NCBI GenBank assembly: GCA_903925205.1
Contig: CAIYEN010000279.1
Span: 1 to 32,236 of the forward strand
Direction: 5' to 3'
DNA from: an uncultured Opitutia bacterium
GTDB taxonomy: Bacteria; Verrucomicrobiota; Verrucomicrobiia; Opitutales; UBA953
DNA length: 32,236 nucleotides
Shown here: positions 23,215 to 32,236 of the stretch, one piece after another
How positions within the stretch are numbered: position 1 is the stretch's first letter
How the letters are laid out: each line of letters starts with the position of its first letter
Notes under the pieces: model-generated
What the model was told of the DNA's origin: nothing
Database searches by the model: none
Seen by the model: the letters and a program-made list of their open reading frames with translations, nothing else
Program-made: the position numbers and the translations under genes

Positions 23215-24690
23215 ATGCCCGCAGCACCCTCCGCCTTCCGTTGCCGCGCCTTTCCGCAACGGTCTGCCGGCGTGCTGTTGCACCCGACCGCCCTACCGGG
23301 CCCAGGCCCCATTGGGACGCTCGGCGCGGAAGCCCATCGCTTCATTGAAGCTTTAGCCGCGGGCGGTTTCACCTGGTGGCAAGTCTGCCCGCTCGGGCCC
23401 ACTGGTTACGGCGACTCGCCCTACCAAGCCTTATCCATCTTCGCGGGAAACCCCTACCTCCTTGACCTCCGTGACCTCGAGCGCCGCGGCTTCCTGACGA
23501 AGGCGGAAGTCGCCAGTGTCCAACGCGGAACCGACCACCACACGGATTATGGCCGCCTCTGGCATGAACTCCGCCCCCTGCTCAAGCTGGCCGGCAGCCG
23601 GGCCGCGCAGGCCCTCGCTCCGGCGGCGAACTTCCAGCAATTCCAAATCGGGCATGCCGCTTGGCTTACGGCTTGGTGTCAATTCTCCGCACTCCGCGAG
23701 CAGAATGGTTTCACGGCACCCTCGACTTGGACCACCACAGTGGCCGATGCGACCCTCTGCGCCGAAGCGGCGGCGCTACAGTTCCTCTTCGCCGAACAAT
23801 GGCAGGCCTTACGTGCGCAAGCACAGCGCCACGGCATCCGCCTCATGGGCGATGAACCCATCTATGTCTCGGCGGATGGGTGCGACGTACGGGCCCACCC
23901 GCAACTCTTCCAGCTCGATGCTCTGGGCCGACCCACGGCGGTCGCCGGCGTACCTCCAGACTACTTTGCGGAAGACGGCCAGCTTTGGGGCAATCCGCTC
24001 TACGATTGGACCGCCCATGCGGCCGACGGCTTCGCTTGGTGGCAGGCACGCGTGCACCACGACCTGCAGCTTTTTGATGCCGTCCGCATCGACCACTTTC
24101 GTGGCCTCTGCGACTACTGGAGCGTCCCCGCTGGCGCGCCCAACGCCCGCGGGGGCACTTGGCACGATGGTCCGGGGCTAGCGTTCACAGTGGCCATGGG
24201 CGACTTGCCGCTGGTGGCCGAAGACCTCGGGCTGCTCTCACCGGGCGTGGACCTCCTCCGGAAGGCCTCCGGCCTGCCAGGAATGGCGGTACTGCAGTTT
24301 GGCTTCGGCGGATCGGCCGATAACCCGCATCACCCGGATAACGTCACGGCCGACCGCGTCGTCTATACGGGCACGCACGACAATGATACCCTCCGAGGTT
24401 GGCTCGCGACCGCTTCCCCGGAGGAACAAGCCAACTTGCAGGAGTTCCTCGGGGCCGTGGACGACGTACCCAGCGCCTTGACTGACGCGGTCCTCGCCAC
24501 GCCAGCCATTTGCGCCATCCTACCCATTCAGGACCTCCTAGGCCTAGGCACGACGGCCCGCTTTAATACTCCCGGTAACCCGCAAGGTAACTGGACTTGG
24601 CGCCTGACCGATAGCGAATTCGCGGCGCTCACCCGCACCCTGCCTGCTTGGCGTCCGCGCTTGGCGCAGTGCCAGCGGCTCAACGCGTAA
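23215..24690 (+). CDS. malQ: 4-alpha-glucanotransferase (amylomaltase)
   Basis: A 491-residue glycoside hydrolase family 77 enzyme that transfers maltooligosaccharide segments in glycogen or maltose metabolism in the cytoplasm. The N-terminus RSAGVLLHPTALPGP and the block PTGYGDSPYQALSIFAGNP are strongly conserved in the family. Catalytic residues are Asp293 in RIDHFRG (nucleophile), Glu336 in VAEDLG (acid/base) and Asp389 in GTHDND (transition-state stabiliser). The length matches short bacterial MalQ. It starts one base after the preceding stop. Its last 11 bases overlap the 3' end of ettA on the opposite strand, and no intrinsic terminator is visible there. Confidence 0.96.
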   Translation: MPAAPSAFRCRAFPQRSAGVLLHPTALPGPGPIGTLGAEAHRFIEALAAGGFTWWQVCPLGPTGYGDSPYQALSIFAGNPYLLDLRDLERRGFLTKAEVASVQRGTDHHTDYGRLWHELRPLLKLAGSRAAQALAPAANFQQFQIGHAAWLTAWCQFSALREQNGFTAPSTWTTTVADATLCAEAAALQFLFAEQWQALRAQAQRHGIRLMGDEPIYVSADGCDVRAHPQLFQLDALGRPTAVAGVPPDYFAEDGQLWGNPLYDWTAHAADGFAWWQARVHHDLQLFDAVRIDHFRGLCDYWSVPAGAPNARGGTWHDGPGLAFTVAMGDLPLVAEDLGLLSPGVDLLRKASGLPGMAVLQFGFGGSADNPHHPDNVTADRVVYTGTHDNDTLRGWLATASPEEQANLQEFLGAVDDVPSALTDAVLATPAICAILPIQDLLGLGTTARFNTPGNPQGNWTWRLTDSEFAALTRTLPAWRPRLAQCQRLNA

Positions 24691-26356
24691 GCCGGCGGTA
24701 CTTGGGACGGCGGGGGGTATCGGAGTCCTCGCCTAAGCGACGGCGCCGCGACTCTAGGTAGTCGCCGTAGTTACCTTCGTGCCAAACGAGTTTACCGTCA
24801 TCCTCAAAGGCCAAGATATGCGTCGCCACGCGATCCAAGAACCAGCGATCGTGTGAAATCACCACCGCGCAACCAGCGAAAGACTCTAACGCATCTTCCA
24901 ACGCGCGAATGGTGTTCACATCCAAGTCATTGGTCGGTTCGTCAAGGAGCAGTACGTTGGCGCCGGCCTTAATCAACCGGGCGAGGTGAATGCGATTGCG
25001 TTCACCGCCCGACATCAGCCCGACCTTGCGCTGTTGCACGTCGCCCGTGAAACCAAAGCGAGCCGCGTAAGCGCGGGCGGGGACAATGACCTTACCGAGG
25101 TGCACCATGTCCTGGCCATCTGAGATGGCTTCCCAGAGGGCCTTGTCCGCGGGCAAGGAATCACGCGATTGATCAACGTGCGCAATCTTGACCGTGTCCC
25201 CTAAAGTCAGCGTGCCCTTATCGGGCTTCTCTTGGCCGGTGATCAGGCGAAAGAGGGTCGTCTTACCCGCGCCGTTCGGGCCGATAATACCGACGATACC
25301 GCCCGCCGGCAGCGAGAAGTTGACGTCCTCCATCAGCACGCGGTCGCCATAAGCTTTCATCAAACCCTTGGCCTCAATCACGGCGCCCCCGAGGCGCGGG
25401 CCGGGCGGAATCCAAATCTCCGCCTTACTCTCGGTCTGCGCCTGATCCTGCGTGAGCATCTGCTCATAGGCACGCAAGCGGGCCTTGTTCTTCGCCACGC
25501 GGGCCTTGGGCGAAGAGCCCGCCCATTCGCGCTCGCGTTCCATCGAGCGCGAGCGGGCGATGGACTGCTTTTCTTCCATCTCAATCCGCTTCTGCTTTTG
25601 CTCGAGCCAAGAGGAGTAATTGCCCTTCCAGGGCACCCCGCGACCACGGTCGAGTTCCAGGATCCAGCCCGCCACGTTGTCGAGGAAGTAACGGTCGTGC
25701 GTAATTGCAATGACCGTCCCCTTGTAATTTTGTAGGTGGCGCTCCAACCAGGCCACGGTATCGGCATCGAGGTGATTGGTCGGTTCGTCGAGGAGGAGGA
25801 TGTCTGGCTCCATCAGCAACAAGCGGCATAAGGCCACGCGGCGCTTTTCCCCGCCGGACAAAGAAGCCACCACCGCGTCAGGGGCGGGGCAGCGCAGGGC
25901 TTCAAGGGCCATCTCAATACGCGCGTCTAGGTCCCAGCCGCCCCGGGCGTCGAGGATGGCTTGAATTTCCCCTTGGCGGGCCAGAATCCGCTCCTGCTCC
26001 TTGGCGTCATCGGTTTCCGAGACCTTCACAAAAGTATCATCATACTCCTCCAGCAGCGCCTTCATCTCCGACACGGCTTCCTTGACGCATTCAGCGACCG
26101 TCTTGGTTTCATCAAGGCGCGGCTCTTGGGCGAGGTAGCCCAACGTGTAGCCCGGGACCGCACTGATTTCACCGTCAAACTCCTTGTCCTCACCCGCCAT
26201 GATTTTGAGCAAGGTCGACTTACCCGAACCGTTGAGGCCGAGGACGCCGATCTTAGCGCCAAAGAAGTACGATAGGGAGATATCCCGGAAGACCGGCTTC
26301 TTCTCGAAGTGCTTGGTCACACCCGTCATGGTAAAAATCACCTTTTCGTCAGCCAT
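24680..26356 (-). CDS. ettA: Energy-dependent translational throttle protein EttA (ABC-F ATPase)
   Basis: A 558-residue soluble ABC-F protein with two nucleotide-binding domains and no membrane part. EttA binds the ribosomal E site and gates entry into elongation according to the ADP/ATP ratio. Walker A motifs are GLNGSGKS (40-47) and GPNGAGKTT near residue 360; signatures LSGGEKRR and MSGGERNR are each followed by LLLDEPTN. The interdomain linker (about 240-330) is highly charged, as in the P-site tRNA-interaction motif. Length agrees with E. coli EttA (555). A strong GC-rich pairing potential (26357-26364 with 26400-26407) lies directly upstream of the ATG. The 3' end overlaps malQ. Confidence 0.95.
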   Translation of the reverse strand: MADEKVIFTMTGVTKHFEKKPVFRDISLSYFFGAKIGVLGLNGSGKSTLLKIMAGEDKEFDGEISAVPGYTLGYLAQEPRLDETKTVAECVKEAVSEMKALLEEYDDTFVKVSETDDAKEQERILARQGEIQAILDARGGWDLDARIEMALEALRCPAPDAVVASLSGGEKRRVALCRLLLMEPDILLLDEPTNHLDADTVAWLERHLQNYKGTVIAITHDRYFLDNVAGWILELDRGRGVPWKGNYSSWLEQKQKRIEMEEKQSIARSRSMEREREWAGSSPKARVAKNKARLRAYEQMLTQDQAQTESKAEIWIPPGPRLGGAVIEAKGLMKAYGDRVLMEDVNFSLPAGGIVGIIGPNGAGKTTLFRLITGQEKPDKGTLTLGDTVKIAHVDQSRDSLPADKALWEAISDGQDMVHLGKVIVPARAYAARFGFTGDVQQRKVGLMSGGERNRIHLARLIKAGANVLLLDEPTNDLDVNTIRALEDALESFAGCAVVISHDRWFLDRVATHILAFEDDGKLVWHEGNYGDYLESRRRRLGEDSDTPRRPKYRRLTR

Positions 26357-26407
26357 GGGGGTGGAGGTTTACCGAAGAACCCCCGGGGGCAAGCGGAACC
26401 CACCCCC
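26357..26407 (-). promoter_or_regulatory. GC-rich stem directly upstream of the ettA start codon
   Basis: In the ettA leader the eight bases next to the ATG (plus strand GGGGGTGG, 26357-26364) are complementary to CCACCCCC at 26400-26407. The loop between them holds the palindrome CCCCCGGGGG (26380-26389). In mRNA these would fold the initiation region into a stable structure. A regulatory role is inference. Confidence 0.4.
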
Positions 26408-26429
26408 TCCCCCGCTTAGGGGTCCCGCC

Positions 26430-26459
26430 TTGACAGGCTCTGCTCCAAGGGGCATATCC
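26430..26459 (+). promoter_or_regulatory. Putative nusA operon promoter
   Basis: A perfect TTGACA -35 box at 26430-26435, with a weak -10 candidate around 26453-26459 (CATATC or ATATCC, spacer 17-18). Transcription would start near 26465, just before the leader hairpins. The -10 matches only about half the consensus, so this is a moderate call. Confidence 0.45.
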
Positions 26460-26470
26460 CAAGTCCTAGT

Positions 26471-26487
26471 CACCTTTCCATAAGGTG
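26471..26487 (+). promoter_or_regulatory. Antiterminator-like hairpin in the nusA leader
   Basis: CACCTT (26471-26476) pairs perfectly with AAGGTG (26482-26487) across a five-base loop. Its 3' arm shares bases 26484-26487 with the 5' arm of the following terminator, so the two hairpins cannot form together. This is the arrangement expected of an attenuator. Confidence 0.55.
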
Positions 26488-26512
26488 GGTCCAGTCCGGA
26501 CCCGCCTTTTTT
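26484..26512 (+). terminator. Intrinsic terminator in the nusA leader
   Basis: GGTGGGTCC (26484-26492) pairs with GGACCCGCC (26498-26506) over nine base pairs including one G-T wobble, with a five-base loop. The stem can extend by two A-T pairs. Six Ts follow (26507-26512). It lies 35 bases before the nusA start and about 20-50 bases after the putative promoter. It could be a leader attenuator or could stop read-through from malQ antisense to ettA. Confidence 0.8.
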
Positions 26513-26547
26513 GTCGCCCATTTTCTCACCACACCACCCGTATACCC

Positions 26548-27804
26548 ATGAGCGTAGACATTAAGCCCTACCTGCAATACCTCGAAAAGGAAAAGAATAT
26601 CCCCAAGGATGAAGCCTGCGCGCTCATCGCCGAAGCCATCAAGTCTTCCGTCGAGAAGTCCGTCCTCGCGGGCCAAAACATCGAGGTCATCGCCGACCCC
26701 GCCACCGGCAAACTCGATGCCTTTGCGGTCTATATCGTCAGCGACTCCCCGTCCGACCCCTTAAAGGAAATCAACCCCGTCGCCGCCACCGCCCTCAAGG
26801 CCGACGCCAAGATCGGCGAAGAAGTCCGCCGCCCGATTGCCGTGTCCGACCTCGGTCGCATCGCGGCCATGAGCACCAAGCAGCTCCTCAACCAGCGCTT
26901 CCGTAAGATCGAGAAGGACCAAGTCTTCAAGGAGTATAAGGATAAGATCGGCGATATCGTCACTGGCACGGTGCGCCGTAACGACCGCGGCAACGTCGTC
27001 GTCGAGCTCGGCTCCGCTGAAGCCGTCCTGACCCGCGCCGAAAGTTGCCAAGGCGAAATCTTCCGCACGGGCGACCGTATCCGCTGCCTCCTCCTCGAAA
27101 TCCGCGAAGACACCCAGCGTGGCCGGGAATTCGTCCTTTCCCGCGCCCACCCGAATTTCGTCCGCCGCCTCCTCGAGCTAGAAGTCGCTGAAATCGCTGA
27201 TAAAACGGTCAAAATCGCGGCAATGGCGCGCGACCCCGGCTACCGCACCAAGATTGCGGTCGACTCCTCCGACCCCAAGGTAGACCCCGTCGGCGCCTGC
27301 GTTGGTGCTCGTGGCGCTCGCGTCCGCAACATCGTGAAGGAACTCAACGGCGAAAAGATCGACATCATCCGCTGGCGCCCCGAGCCCCTGCAGTTGCTTG
27401 AAGAAGCCATCCGCCCGGCCAAGCCTCGCAACGTGCACGTCGACGAGCGTAACCGCCTCATCCACTTCGAAGTCGATGAAGACGACATGCGCATCGCCAT
27501 CGGCTCCAAGGGTCGCAACGCCCGCCTGACGTCCAAGCTCATGGGCTGGCGCCTCGACATCACGAAGTCGACACGCGCTCCCGAAAGCGTGGACGCCCAG
27601 CTCGGCGAAAAGGCCCTGCGCCTCGCCGCTCAATTGCAACTATCGCCTGACCTCATCGCTAAGTTCGTCGGCCTCGGCATCGCCGAACTCGCCGCCTTCA
27701 GCGATGTGACTGCCGAAGACTTGGTTGGAACCTCGATCACCGAGGATGAATTCAACACCGTCCTCGCTGCCGTCGCCAAGGCCAAGACCGCTGGCCAGGC
27801 CTAA
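26548..27804 (+). CDS. nusA: Transcription termination/antitermination factor NusA
   Basis: A 418-residue RNA-polymerase-associated factor that modulates pausing, termination and antitermination. The N-terminal polymerase-binding domain covers about 1-130, S1 about 133-200 (GDIVTGTVRRNDRGNVVVEL), KH1 about 230-290 with GARG (253-256), and KH2 about 300-345 with GSKG (319-322). A C-terminal tail of about 65 residues (355-418) contains a helix-hairpin-helix-like segment LIAKFVGLGIAELAAF. The start at 26548 (MSVDIKPYL) is taken because the upstream frame overlaps the leader terminator; no Shine-Dalgarno precedes it. Unlike in many bacteria, rimP does not lie upstream. infB follows after 47 bases, with a small GTCTG/CAGAC hairpin right after the stop. 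Confidence 0.95.
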   Translation: MSVDIKPYLQYLEKEKNIPKDEACALIAEAIKSSVEKSVLAGQNIEVIADPATGKLDAFAVYIVSDSPSDPLKEINPVAATALKADAKIGEEVRRPIAVSDLGRIAAMSTKQLLNQRFRKIEKDQVFKEYKDKIGDIVTGTVRRNDRGNVVVELGSAEAVLTRAESCQGEIFRTGDRIRCLLLEIREDTQRGREFVLSRAHPNFVRRLLELEVAEIADKTVKIAAMARDPGYRTKIAVDSSDPKVDPVGACVGARGARVRNIVKELNGEKIDIIRWRPEPLQLLEEAIRPAKPRNVHVDERNRLIHFEVDEDDMRIAIGSKGRNARLTSKLMGWRLDITKSTRAPESVDAQLGEKALRLAAQLQLSPDLIAKFVGLGIAELAAFSDVTAEDLVGTSITEDEFNTVLAAVAKAKTAGQA

Positions 27805-27851
27805 GTCTGGCGCAGACTCCGCTCCCTCTACCGTCCACCCAGTACCTGCAC

Positions 27852-30299
27852 ATGACCGAGAAGAAGAAGAAACCCGAAGCAAAGAAGGCCTCGACCACCC
27901 AGCGTTACAGCGACGTGGCCAAGGAACTCGGCCTCGAGGTCAAGGCATTGCTCGCCTTGGCGGACCAGTTCGTAGAGGCCCATCCGGACTTCAAGGACCT
28001 CGTCTACGCCGAAGGCAAGAAGCCGGCCGCCTCCAGCAATTTCAGCAAGTTCTACCGCGATGACTTCATGAAGTTTGCGGCGGACAAGTTGCCCAAAAAG
28101 GAAGAGCCCGCCCCCGTGGTCGCTCCGGTGGTCGCTCCCGTGGCCGCCCCCATTAAGCCCGTGATCGAAGCCGCTAAGCCCACCGCACCGGCAGCTCCGA
28201 CTGCTCCGGCCGCCGCTAAGCCTAACGTCCCGCCAGCCGTCCTGCCTCCGCGCCCCGCCCCCTTAGCTCCGCCGCGGCCGACCGCGGGCCCCGCTCCGGT
28301 CGTCCCGCCGCGTCCCGTCGCCCCGCCGACGACTCCGCGCAACGAACTGCCTCCCATTGTCATCACGCCTTCGCAGCCCCCAGCTGCGCCGAGCCGCCCC
28401 AGCCCCCTCCCTCCGATCGTCCGCCCGCCGGCTGCACCGGTGGTCACGCGTACCGTAGGTGGTGCCGGGCAAGTCGCCCCAGGCAGTAAGGGTGCCGTCA
28501 CGGTCCGTCCGCCCATCGTGGTGCGCGACTTCGCCATCGCCCTCAACCTCAAGCCCTTCCAAGTCATCGGCAGCCTGATGGAGTTAAACAAGGTCGTCAG
28601 CGTCGCTTCAGTCATTGAAGAAGCCGACGCACGGAAGGTCGCCGAGAAGCATGGCTACGTCCTCGAGATTCGCCACCGCGGCGAAGGCGCTCAGCCCGTC
28701 AAGAAGGTCGAAAAGAACACCGACGACGATCCCGCCCTGCTTGCGGTCCGTCCGCCGGTCGTCTGCGTGCTCGGCCACGTCGACCACGGCAAGACCACGC
28801 TCCTCGACTACTTCCGCAAGACCAACGTGGTGTCCGGCGAAGCCGGCGGCATCACCCAGCACATCGGTGCTTACTCCGTCAAGTACCAGGGCGAGAAGCC
28901 CGAGTACAAGGGGCGCACCGTCACCTTCCTCGACACGCCAGGTCACGCCGCCTTCGCCAAGATGCGCGAACGTGGCGCCTCCGTTACGGATATCGCCGTC
29001 CTCGTGGTGGCGGCCGACGACGGCTTCATGCCGCAGACCGAAGAAGCCCTCAAGTTCGCCCAGAAGCATGCCAGCGCCATCGTTTGCGCCGTGAACAAGG
29101 TGGACGCCAAGGGCGCCAACATTGATCGCGTGAAGCAGCAGATGCAGCAGCGCGGCATCACCCCGGAAGACTGGGGTGGCGAAACCATTACCAACGCTGT
29201 CTCCGCGCTCAAGGGCACGGGCATGAACGAGCTCCTCGAGTCGATCCTCCTGCAGGCCGAAATCCTCGACCTCAAGGCGAACCCCAAGTGCGCCGCCCAA
29301 GGCGTCGTCATCGAATCCCAGATGGAGACCGGCCGTGGCCCAACCGCGACCGTCATCGTCCAGAAGGGCACCCTCAAAGCTGGTGACTCCTTCGTCTGCG
29401 GCGAAACGTGGTGTAAGGTCCGCGCGCTCATGGATGAACGCGGTGGCCGCATCCAGAATTCCGCTCCAGGCACCCCGGCCCTCGTGCTCGGCTGGGACGC
29501 CGTCCCGGCTCCAGGCACGAAGTTCCAGACCTTAAAGAACGACCGCGAAGCCCGCGAACTGGCCGAAGAAGCCGCCCTCGCTGGCCGCAAGGCCGCCGAA
29601 GCCCAACAGCAGGCGCCGAACACCGGCGCTCGCCCTGGCATGACGGACCTCGAACGCCTCATGGCCGCCCTCGCACAGGATAAGGAGAAGATTCTCCGCG
29701 TCCTGCTTAAGGCTGACGTCAACGGCACGCTCGAAGCCCTCGAAGGTTGCCTCCGCGAAATCAAGTCCACCAAGGTCCGCCTCGACATCGTCGGCGGCTC
29801 CGTCGGCCCGATTACGCAGAGTGACGTCCAGTTGGCCGAAGCGGCCCGCTCCATCATCGTCGGTTTCGACACCAAGATTGAGAACGGCGTCCAAGCCCAC
29901 CTCAAGCGCACGGGTGTCCGCATCGTGACGCATGACATCATCTACGAACTCATCACCTTGGTGAAGGAAGCCATGTCGGAGCTCCTCGACCCCGAAGTGC
30001 GCGAGAACAAACTCGGTGGCGCCGAGGTCCGTGCGGTCTTCCCGCTGGGCAAGGAACACAAGGTGGCTGGTTGTATGGTCACCGAAGGCCTCGTCCGTCG
30101 CCAAGCCAAGGCTCGGCTCGTCCGCAAGGGCCAGATTATCCACCAGGGCCCCGTCGAGACGCTCCGGCGCTTCAAGGACGATGCTTCCGAGGTCAAGGCC
30201 GGCTTCGAGTGCGGTATCAAACTGGGTGGCTACGATGAGTACCTGCCAGGCGACATCATCGAAGTGGTCGAGATGCTCCAGGTCCGCCCCAGCCTCTAA
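27852..30299 (+). CDS. infB: Translation initiation factor IF-2
   Basis: An 815-residue GTPase that brings initiator fMet-tRNA to the 30S subunit and promotes subunit joining. The N-terminus has a short IF-2 N domain and then a long proline/alanine/valine-rich linker at about 80-220, low in complexity. A second IF-2 N-like domain precedes the G domain: GHVDHGKTT (308-316), DTPGHAAF and NKVDA are the G1, G3 and G4 motifs. Domains II-IV follow, with an alanine/glutamine-rich insertion near 570-595 (EEAALAGRKAAEAQQQ). It sits between nusA and rbfA as in most bacteria. No Shine-Dalgarno is visible. The repetitive linker makes the extreme N-terminus less conserved but not doubtful. Confidence 0.97.
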   Translation: MTEKKKKPEAKKASTTQRYSDVAKELGLEVKALLALADQFVEAHPDFKDLVYAEGKKPAASSNFSKFYRDDFMKFAADKLPKKEEPAPVVAPVVAPVAAPIKPVIEAAKPTAPAAPTAPAAAKPNVPPAVLPPRPAPLAPPRPTAGPAPVVPPRPVAPPTTPRNELPPIVITPSQPPAAPSRPSPLPPIVRPPAAPVVTRTVGGAGQVAPGSKGAVTVRPPIVVRDFAIALNLKPFQVIGSLMELNKVVSVASVIEEADARKVAEKHGYVLEIRHRGEGAQPVKKVEKNTDDDPALLAVRPPVVCVLGHVDHGKTTLLDYFRKTNVVSGEAGGITQHIGAYSVKYQGEKPEYKGRTVTFLDTPGHAAFAKMRERGASVTDIAVLVVAADDGFMPQTEEALKFAQKHASAIVCAVNKVDAKGANIDRVKQQMQQRGITPEDWGGETITNAVSALKGTGMNELLESILLQAEILDLKANPKCAAQGVVIESQMETGRGPTATVIVQKGTLKAGDSFVCGETWCKVRALMDERGGRIQNSAPGTPALVLGWDAVPAPGTKFQTLKNDREARELAEEAALAGRKAAEAQQQAPNTGARPGMTDLERLMAALAQDKEKILRVLLKADVNGTLEALEGCLREIKSTKVRLDIVGGSVGPITQSDVQLAEAARSIIVGFDTKIENGVQAHLKRTGVRIVTHDIIYELITLVKEAMSELLDPEVRENKLGGAEVRAVFPLGKEHKVAGCMVTEGLVRRQAKARLVRKGQIIHQGPVETLRRFKDDASEVKAGFECGIKLGGYDEYLPGDIIEVVEMLQVRPSL

Positions 30300-30302
30300 G
30301 TC

Positions 30303-30674
30303 ATGTCGCAGCGCCAGCTCCGGGTAGCCGAATTGATCCAGCGCGAAGTGTCCGTCGCGCTCCGGCGCAATTGGATTACCGAATCGGCGTTGATCACGAT
30401 TACCCGCGCGACCGTTTCGCCCGACCTCCGCCAAGTGCGGGTGGGCTACGCGGTCTCGGGCGGTGACCCTGAAAAGAAGGCGGCGCGTATTTTCTTGAAG
30501 CGTATCCGGCGCGAACTGCGTGCCGCGGTCAGTGGCATCTTACAGATGAAGAATGCCCCTGAGCTCATCCTCGCGGAGGATGACGTCACGGGCGGCGTCG
30601 CGCGCGTCCAGGCCCTGCTCGACGAGATGTCACGCAAGGATAAGCCGGCCACGCCCGCGGATGCCGACGAGTAA
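30303..30674 (+). CDS. rbfA: 30S ribosome-binding factor A
   Basis: A 123-residue KH-fold protein that helps mature the 5' end of 16S rRNA in the small subunit. It begins MSQRQLRVAELIQREVSVALR, the typical amphipathic start of RbfA, followed by ITITRATVSPDLRQVRVGYAV, which contains the conserved V-S-D/P-D-L-x-x-A/V core. The tail is acidic and low in complexity. It starts three bases after the infB stop, so it is probably coupled. truB, often next, is absent; the gene converges on mcsB with a 12-base gap. Confidence 0.94.
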   Translation: MSQRQLRVAELIQREVSVALRRNWITESALITITRATVSPDLRQVRVGYAVSGGDPEKKAARIFLKRIRRELRAAVSGILQMKNAPELILAEDDVTGGVARVQALLDEMSRKDKPATPADADE

Positions 30675-30686
30675 GCCGCGGCGGCC

Positions 30687-31760
30687 TTAAGCCGTCGGCG
30701 CGCCGACTTCCGGAAAATCACGGAGCGCTTCGCGCACCGCGGTGGCACGACGGCTATCCCGGCCATCGCTATCGAGCTCCGCGCCTTGGCGGGCTTGCAC
30801 ATGCGCCGGCTGCCCTTCGATCATCAGCCGGTCGACGACATGGCGCCGTTCCTCGGGCAAGCAACCCATGTCGCAGGCTAAGCGGAGATGCGAAAGCATA
30901 TTCATCGACTCCGCGCTGCTCAGCAGGCGCGCGTGGCGGAGCAGCCCGAGCGAACGCGCGAGACGGTCAACAAAGCGCTCCCCTTCTTCCTGGGCCAGCT
31001 TACGCCGGGCGTTCCATTCTTGCTCAACTAAGGTTTTCACCCAACCGCCGAGGTGACGAAGGATTGCGTCCTCCGACAACCCGAGGGTCTGCTGATTCGA
31101 AATCTGGAAGATATTACCGGCCGCTTCGGTGCCTTCGCCCAACCAGCCGCGCACCGCCAAGCCATCTTGGCTGAGGGCACGCGTAACCTTCTCGATATGT
31201 CCTGCGAGGCAGAGCCCGGGCAGGTGCACCATGGCCGAAGCACGCAGGCCCGTGCCGACGTTCGTGGGACAAGCGGTTAGAAAGCCTAGCTGATCCGAGA
31301 AAGCGATCCCCAGCGACGCGCCAATCGCGTCGTCGAGTTGTTCGGCAATATTCCAAGTACCGCGCAGGTGCCAGCCCGCCTTGACGACTTGGATGCGGAG
31401 GTGATCCTCTTCGTTCACCATGACCGAACAGGTCTGGTCGCGGCTAATGACGGCGGCGCCGCTCTTACCTGAGGCGAGTTCCTTGGATACTAAGTGACGC
31501 TCCACCAACACGGCCCGGTCGAGGTCCGGCAGGTCGCCCATCTTGAAGACATGCGACTTCCGGAAGCGGGGCAACTTAGTCAGGGCCTCGAGGCAACGCT
31601 CGGCAATTTCCTTCCGGTGGGCAGGCTTAGCCCAACCCGGAAAGGGAAACCCTTCGAGATTGCGGGCGAGGCGCACGCGGGTGCTGAGCACCACGGCCTG
31701 CTGGGCACCCAGCAAGTGGGTGAGCTCATTCTCGTCGGCGAGGATTTCCTGAACAGACAT
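30687..31760 (-). CDS. mcsB: Protein arginine kinase McsB
   Basis: A 357-residue kinase of the phosphagen (guanidino) kinase fold. McsB phosphorylates arginines on proteins and marks them for ClpC-ClpP degradation. ATP-binding arginines are visible in STRVRLARN (26-34), the catalytic acidic block is NEED (116-119), and CPTNVGTG (164-171) carries the loop cysteine Cys164. Near the C-terminus RDSRRA (334-339) matches the RDxxRA phosphoarginine-sensing motif of McsB. I use the ATG at 31760; an in-frame start fifteen codons upstream lies inside mcsA. mcsA ends four bases before it on the same strand, so the two are coupled. clpC is not in the window. Confidence 0.93.
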   Translation of the reverse strand: MSVQEILADENELTHLLGAQQAVVLSTRVRLARNLEGFPFPGWAKPAHRKEIAERCLEALTKLPRFRKSHVFKMGDLPDLDRAVLVERHLVSKELASGKSGAAVISRDQTCSVMVNEEDHLRIQVVKAGWHLRGTWNIAEQLDDAIGASLGIAFSDQLGFLTACPTNVGTGLRASAMVHLPGLCLAGHIEKVTRALSQDGLAVRGWLGEGTEAAGNIFQISNQQTLGLSEDAILRHLGGWVKTLVEQEWNARRKLAQEEGERFVDRLARSLGLLRHARLLSSAESMNMLSHLRLACDMGCLPEERRHVVDRLMIEGQPAHVQARQGAELDSDGRDSRRATAVREALRDFPEVGAPTA

Positions 31761-31764
31761 GGGT

Positions 31765-32236
31765 TTAAAGGGTAGCAAGTTGGGCGGCGATGCGGGCAAC
31801 CTCATCGCGAAGCTTCGCGGCGGCCTCGTAATCTTCCGCCGCGATGGCAGCGGTCATTTCCTGCTGCGCTTCGAGGAGGCGATGGCGGAGTTGTCCTAGT
31901 GGAACCGTTCCGGCGGGGGCCCGACCGACGTGCTGGGTCTCATGCTGCACCTTGGAAAGAAGGCCACCGAGGGCCACCCCGAAGACCTGCCAGCAGGACG
32001 GACAGCCCAAGCGGCCGCGGCGCCGAAACTCGACGTCGGTGAACCCACATTCGGGGCAAGTGATGGCTGGAGCAGGTGTCGCGGCATTGACCGCATCGGC
32101 GAGTTTAAAAACCGCCGCATCCCCCGCCCCGCCCTTGGCGGCACAGGCCTCGCAAAAATCCACCTTCGTCACCTTACCCTGGACGATTTGGGTCAGGTGG
32201 ACGGTCGCGACGGCGTCGCAGACGGAGCACTTGAGC
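31765..32236 (-). CDS. mcsA: McsA-like zinc-binding activator of the arginine kinase (5' end cut by the window)
   Basis: At least 156 residues; the reading frame continues past base 32236, and the true start is probably a codon or two beyond it, because a CSVC zinc pair is already visible at the edge. McsA activates McsB. There are four CxxC pairs (CSVC, CEAC, CPEC and CPSC), consistent with two zinc fingers, and a C-terminal UVR-type helical motif (LLEAQQEMTAAIAAEDYEAA) with a basic/acidic heptad-like pattern. A GTG at 32172 gives a shorter reading frame that would remove the first zinc pair and is rejected. It is followed by mcsB after four bases. Confidence 0.88.
   Translation of the reverse strand, partial: LKCSVCDAVATVHLTQIVQGKVTKVDFCEACAAKGGAGDAAVFKLADAVNAATPAPAITCPECGFTDVEFRRRGRLGCPSCWQVFGVALGGLLSKVQHETQHVGRAPAGTVPLGQLRHRLLEAQQEMTAAIAAEDYEAAAKLRDEVARIAAQLATL

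Follow-up and report, generated by a model that had tools for sequence, protein, structure and literature searches.

A candidate promoter-proximal attenuator with two competing stems in front of the nusA-infB-rbfA operon of an Opitutales bacterium, and its counterparts across Verrucomicrobiota

Why should an intrinsic terminator stand between a promoter and the first gene of an operon for transcription and translation factors? The window, the whole 32,236-nt stretch of DNA that was analyzed, raises this question at positions 26430-26547, directly in front of nusA (26548-27804, forward strand; 418 aa; Pfam NusA_N and NusA-like KH, TIGR01953). The gene opens an operon that continues with infB for translation initiation factor 2 (27852-30299, forward strand) and rbfA (30303-30674, forward strand), both assigned by Pfam. 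On the other side lies a divergent ettA-like ABC-F gene (24680-26356, reverse strand; Pfam ABC_tran and ABC_tran_Xtn; the name ettA is putative). The stretch from its start codon to the nusA -35 box contains a block similar to CCCCCGGGGGCAAGCGGAACCC (26380-26402), kept in most relatives of the genus and probably the promoter or leader of the ABC-F gene. We read the nusA leader as a promoter-proximal attenuator acting by strand exchange, most likely under negative feedback by NusA, and give this reading a probability of roughly 0.6. The evidence is wholly comparative, and the related genomes are mostly metagenome-assembled.

The -35 box proposed in a preliminary description of this DNA (26430-26435, forward strand) indeed reads TTGACA, and TTGAC recurs at a like distance across the phylum. 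The -10 element, CATATC (26453-26458, forward strand), is weak, with three of six consensus bases, and lies behind a 17-nt spacer; an alignment of 83 promoters of the phylum shows a -10 signal of the form T-A-A-n-n-T (TAnnnT) at the same 17-nt spacing, and this comparison lends support to the promoter. From the -10 position, transcription is predicted to start at approximately 26465-26468 on the forward strand. A leader-peptide attenuator, which would use a short translated ORF, was considered and set aside, as ATG is absent from 26465-26547 and the ORF start listed at 26485, a GTG, shares the reading frame of nusA. No Shine-Dalgarno-like sequence was seen before the nusA ATG (26513-26547), and the same holds in close relatives.

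Downstream of this promoter, the forward strand can form two mutually exclusive stems, one of them an intrinsic terminator, which is the general plan of a terminator/antiterminator pair. Hairpin 1 joins arm A, CACCTT (26471-26476), to arm B, AAGGTG (26482-26487), by 6 bp around the loop TCCAT. The terminator has a 9-bp core, GGTGGGTCC/GGACCCGCC (26484-26506), followed by a U-tract of six T (26507-26512) and GTC. Its upper stem-loop, GGTCC/AGTCC/GGACC (26488-26502), is compatible with hairpin 1 by energy evaluation, and AA at 26482-26483 can pair with TT at 26507-26508, extending the stem to 11 bp with one U.G pair (26482-26508); written out in full, the structure is AAGGTGGGTCC/AGTCC/GGACCCGCCTT followed by TTTT (26482-26512). 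Arm B is shared, serving as the 3' arm of hairpin 1 and as the base of the terminator's 5' arm. The preliminary description had located both hairpins correctly (26471-26487 and 26484-26512) and had rightly seen that they overlap; the shared stretch it gave, 26484-26487, is too short, since counting the basal A-U pairs makes it six bases (26482-26487) rather than four.

The terminator segment has a folding energy of -20.5 kcal/mol (z = -4.15, none of the shuffles being equally good) and is the strongest of 12 terminator-like sites in 24000-32236. Hairpin 1 alone is within chance here (p about 0.15 by dinucleotide shuffle of the 5' segment; z = -1.35), a per-sequence test that is weak on so short and pyrimidine-rich a segment and was replaced by the swap test described below; its significance comes from comparison with relatives, not from the single sequence. 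The chance-level score in the window would suit a simpler account, in which the terminator is a plain one that halts transcripts entering from upstream, with hairpin 1 incidental. Conservation and covariation of arm A, presented below, speak against that account. The Rfam search of the window leader and ten related loci returned no match at gathering score, only chance matches, and no second copy of CACCTTN3-8AGGTGGG occurs elsewhere in the genome. A similar GCGGG...CCCGC terminator, found as a model match in the same genome (L267 1501-1545; G000:C96:2589-2633), was rejected as a regulon member: it lies just past a stop codon, between co-directional genes predicted, and named by inspection, as a secreted-protein gene and a symporter-like gene, and is most likely an ordinary gene end, so we see no evidence for a regulon.

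The computed energies are what a strand-exchange switch would look like. In the window leader, hairpin 1 reaches -7.3 kcal/mol, hairpin 1 with the upper stem (the read-through state) -15.3 kcal/mol and the full terminator -20.5 kcal/mol, with a barrier of 3.8 kcal/mol. Across the 15 leaders computed (the combined state of G082 was left out, as its stems as written clash), the terminator is in most cases favored by about 1-7 kcal/mol, with an exchange barrier of 2-5 kcal/mol; in G079 and G141, hairpin 1 with the upper stem is slightly favored over the full terminator. With the terminator ahead by about 5 kcal/mol in the window genome, hairpin 1 may do no more there than slow its formation.

A NusA protein scan of genome contigs yielded 46 loci with enough upstream DNA, from the genus and its nearest relatives (NusA 68-99% identical), and both stems are present directly upstream of nusA in every one. 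Counting loci beyond these 46, there are 23 distinct leader variants. Arm A is CACCTT in all genus variants, with varying loop length and spacer, and arm B is [AG]AGGTG except in two loci: L028, where it is one base shorter and five arm A pairs are used, and L009, a close relative whose AAGGCGTGTCC costs each stem a pair. The genus alignment shows hardly any change in the terminator stem, the T-tract or the GTC behind it, and free variation from the -35 box to arm A, the -10 position excepted. In one same-genus genome, the nusA match (L151; G021:C2:258427-259574) is broken by several stops and frame changes, reflecting either an assembly error or a decayed copy.

CACCTT...AAGGTG is also a perfect palindrome in DNA with arms conserved in the genus, as an operator for a repressor binding just downstream of the start site would be. 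We consider such an operator very improbable. The spacing between its half-sites varies by 1-3 nt in close relatives, which would rotate them relative to each other; the right arm always doubles as the terminator base; and the arm letters differ between families, with complementarity kept.

This last property became visible in a sample of the order drawn from more than 20 families. All three arms change together, the A/B/C sets including CACCTT/AAGGTG/CGCCTT, CACTTT/AAAGTG/CGCTTT, GCTTTC/GAAAGC/CCGCTTT and CTCTTA/TAAGAG/CGCTCT, among others. Of 61 order-level leaders with the motif, genus variants included, 51 have a competing stem of 5 bp or more, a count that takes the best stem per leader and hence is no test by itself; no competing arm of this length was detected in the other 10, nor in most leaders outside the order. 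The swap test sets the base pairing of each leader's 5' segment to its own shared arm against its pairing to the shared arms of other genomes. In the order, own arms scored 11.4 against 8.5 for swapped arms (z = 4.2), a value reached by none of 20,000 permutations; reversed segments gave z = 2.2 and shuffled segments about 0.3 on average. Because the reversed control is nonzero, base composition accounts for part of the signal, though not for the greater part. The test gave z = 4.4 outside the order, against 1.8 for the reversed control, with visible competing arms in some lineages only. Applied within one family, to 15 further order genomes, it was powerless (p = 0.14), the arms there being almost the same.

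The base next to GGG is informative in its own right. Arm C, the far arm of the terminator, has G there in 59 of 61 leaders, and the pair formed by arms A and B is either A-U or G-C. As this G pairs with both U and C, the variation is explained by hairpin 1 and not by the terminator. A competing arm accompanies a U.G or C-G pair at that position in 32 of 65 leaders, as against 7 of 49 with U-A (Fisher p = 0.0001, related genomes being non-independent). Competing arms are likewise commoner at nusA leaders than at other terminators of the same loci, 59% vs 13%, a difference inflated by related sequences. The overlapping arms, whose lack of conservation in relatives the preliminary description had named as grounds for giving up its attenuator, are thus retained in the genus and change in concert across the order, and its reading of the stems as mutually exclusive parts of an attenuator gains support. 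The switch anatomy, with both stems and the shared arm, appears well supported on these comparisons. A branch of another family of the class (L206, L207 and L208, from G223, G194 and G141) carries a longer, unrelated competing arm, GTTCCGGTCT/AGATTGGGGC, which also overlaps the nusA terminator.

The terminator itself reaches much further. Of 142 Verrucomicrobiota leaders, 115 have the plan GYGGG...CCCRC with a T-tract ahead of nusA, and among these the match in G057 is probably spurious. In 83 of 116 leaders, TTGAC precedes GYGGG by 55-69 nt; it is seldom met at other distances, and this nearly fixed spacing implies a promoter that fires into a terminator about 26-50 nt past the start, at a nearly constant position. 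The gene upstream of the leader varies: the genus and G058 have a divergent ABC-F gene there, G094 and genomes like it a co-directional DUF2851 gene. Where DUF2851 ends shortly upstream, in the Opitutaceae-type genomes, the stop could end its transcript, as the plain-terminator account supposes. However, the upstream gene is separated from the terminator by the promoter, whose distance to the terminator is nearly fixed across the phylum, and the upstream gene is divergent in the window's own genus; together with the behavior of arm A, this leaves the plain terminator quite unlikely. The alternative named in the preliminary description, a stop for transcripts running antisense to ettA, loses ground for a related reason, the promoter distance being kept where the upstream gene is the co-directional DUF2851.

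In our preferred reading, the attenuator by strand exchange, RNA polymerase would start near 26465-26468, and arm A (CACCUU) would pair first with arm B (AAGGUG), forming hairpin 1 in the presumed co-transcriptional order. With the GGG...CCC upper stem in place, arm C (CGCCUU) could capture arm B, complete the terminator at the U-tract and so release a transcript of about 45-48 nt. If instead hairpin 1 held arm B, the base of the stem would stay open beside the U-tract and polymerase would presumably read through into nusA-infB-rbfA. Any factor that speeds completion of the stem would favor the stop, so that high NusA would be expected to favor termination and low NusA read-through.

By analogy, NusA is a plausible sensed factor. 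Three points put it first among the candidates: it helps terminator hairpins to complete elsewhere (PMC8060035), it is the product of the first gene, and there is a direct precedent for NusA-controlled leader termination. In B. subtilis, according to a review (PMC12288461), NusA feedback through intrinsic termination in the 5' leader controls nusA transcription (Mondal et al. 2016). The attenuator could also be real and answer to something else, such as temperature acting on stems that are close to balance, NusG-dependent pausing, IF2, RbfA, or a cold-shock protein melting the hairpins. Only a few kcal/mol and low barriers separate the two states in those species whose leaders were computed, the operon also encodes IF2 and RbfA, and E. 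coli infB is cold-induced, with operon terminators upstream of rimP (PMC6511841). Set against this are the B. subtilis precedent and the description of the GGG...CCC terminator as specific to nusA-containing operons (PMC2965389), together with its persistence in a phylum without detectable RimP. We regard a different effector as a real, if doubtful, possibility. More tentative still is the idea that the terminator end at about +50, phylum-wide and with or without a competing arm, marks a start-proximal NusA-loading check that sets the output of nusA, infB and rbfA and is refined in Opitutales and some other lineages by the strand-exchange hairpin. The near-constant position of the terminator end prompts the question behind this idea, namely whether NusA is already on the polymerase just after promoter escape.

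The closest known relative in design is the rimP-leader of Naville and Gautheret (2010), a short conserved GGG...CCC intrinsic terminator of the nusA/infB operon, 4-130 nt before the first gene (PMC2965389). The gene for RimP begins this operon in most other bacteria, and of the two effectors considered for that leader, RimP and NusA, the latter was named the best candidate (PMC2965389). The leader described here shares the conserved GGG...CCC intrinsic terminator 5' of a nusA-infB operon. It differs in lying upstream of nusA rather than rimP, RimP being absent from the phylum sample: RimP_N was detected in none of 29 relatives and none of 96 phylum genomes, and the RimP C-terminal family in none of 39, with positive controls. 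The sampled Verrucomicrobiota are without detectable RimP, yet nusA persists; infB and rbfA were seen in the window only. By comparison alone, a phylum that keeps the GGG...CCC terminator without detectable RimP argues against RimP as the general effector. Further differences are the near-fixed promoter-terminator distance and the conserved, covarying arm A, whereas the rimP-leader in its general form was described with no visible antiterminator; where it occurs in tandem, in Gammaproteobacteria, the antiterminator is that of a second terminator lying upstream. We suggest that the leader would work as the rimP-leader does, in a variant form that lacks rimP and has a competing arm, a likeness in plan.

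Termination in a 5' leader before nusA is also shared with NusA autoregulation in B. subtilis, the NusA dependence being putative here. The B. subtilis leader measures 180 nt, as cited by Naville and Gautheret (PMC2965389), and the terminator here ends about 50 nt past the predicted start. In E. coli, the metY-rimP-nusA-infB leader likewise has terminators, t1 and t2, upstream of the nusA operon, and NusA has a role in its own expression (PMC6511841). That leader contains several promoters, a tRNA gene and RNase III sites, in contrast to the single compact promoter-hairpin-terminator unit found here. A literature search on Verrucomicrobiota leaders or 3'-end maps returned nothing usable.

That most of the phylum keeps this stop, and keeps it about equally far from the promoter, suggests that NusA or another factor tunes its own supply. 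The fixed promoter-terminator distance and the three-arm covariation together make the leader a compact system of about 50 nt whose arms can be mutated separately. It could offer a way to test NusA-dependent termination in a phylum in which the control of transcription has received little study.
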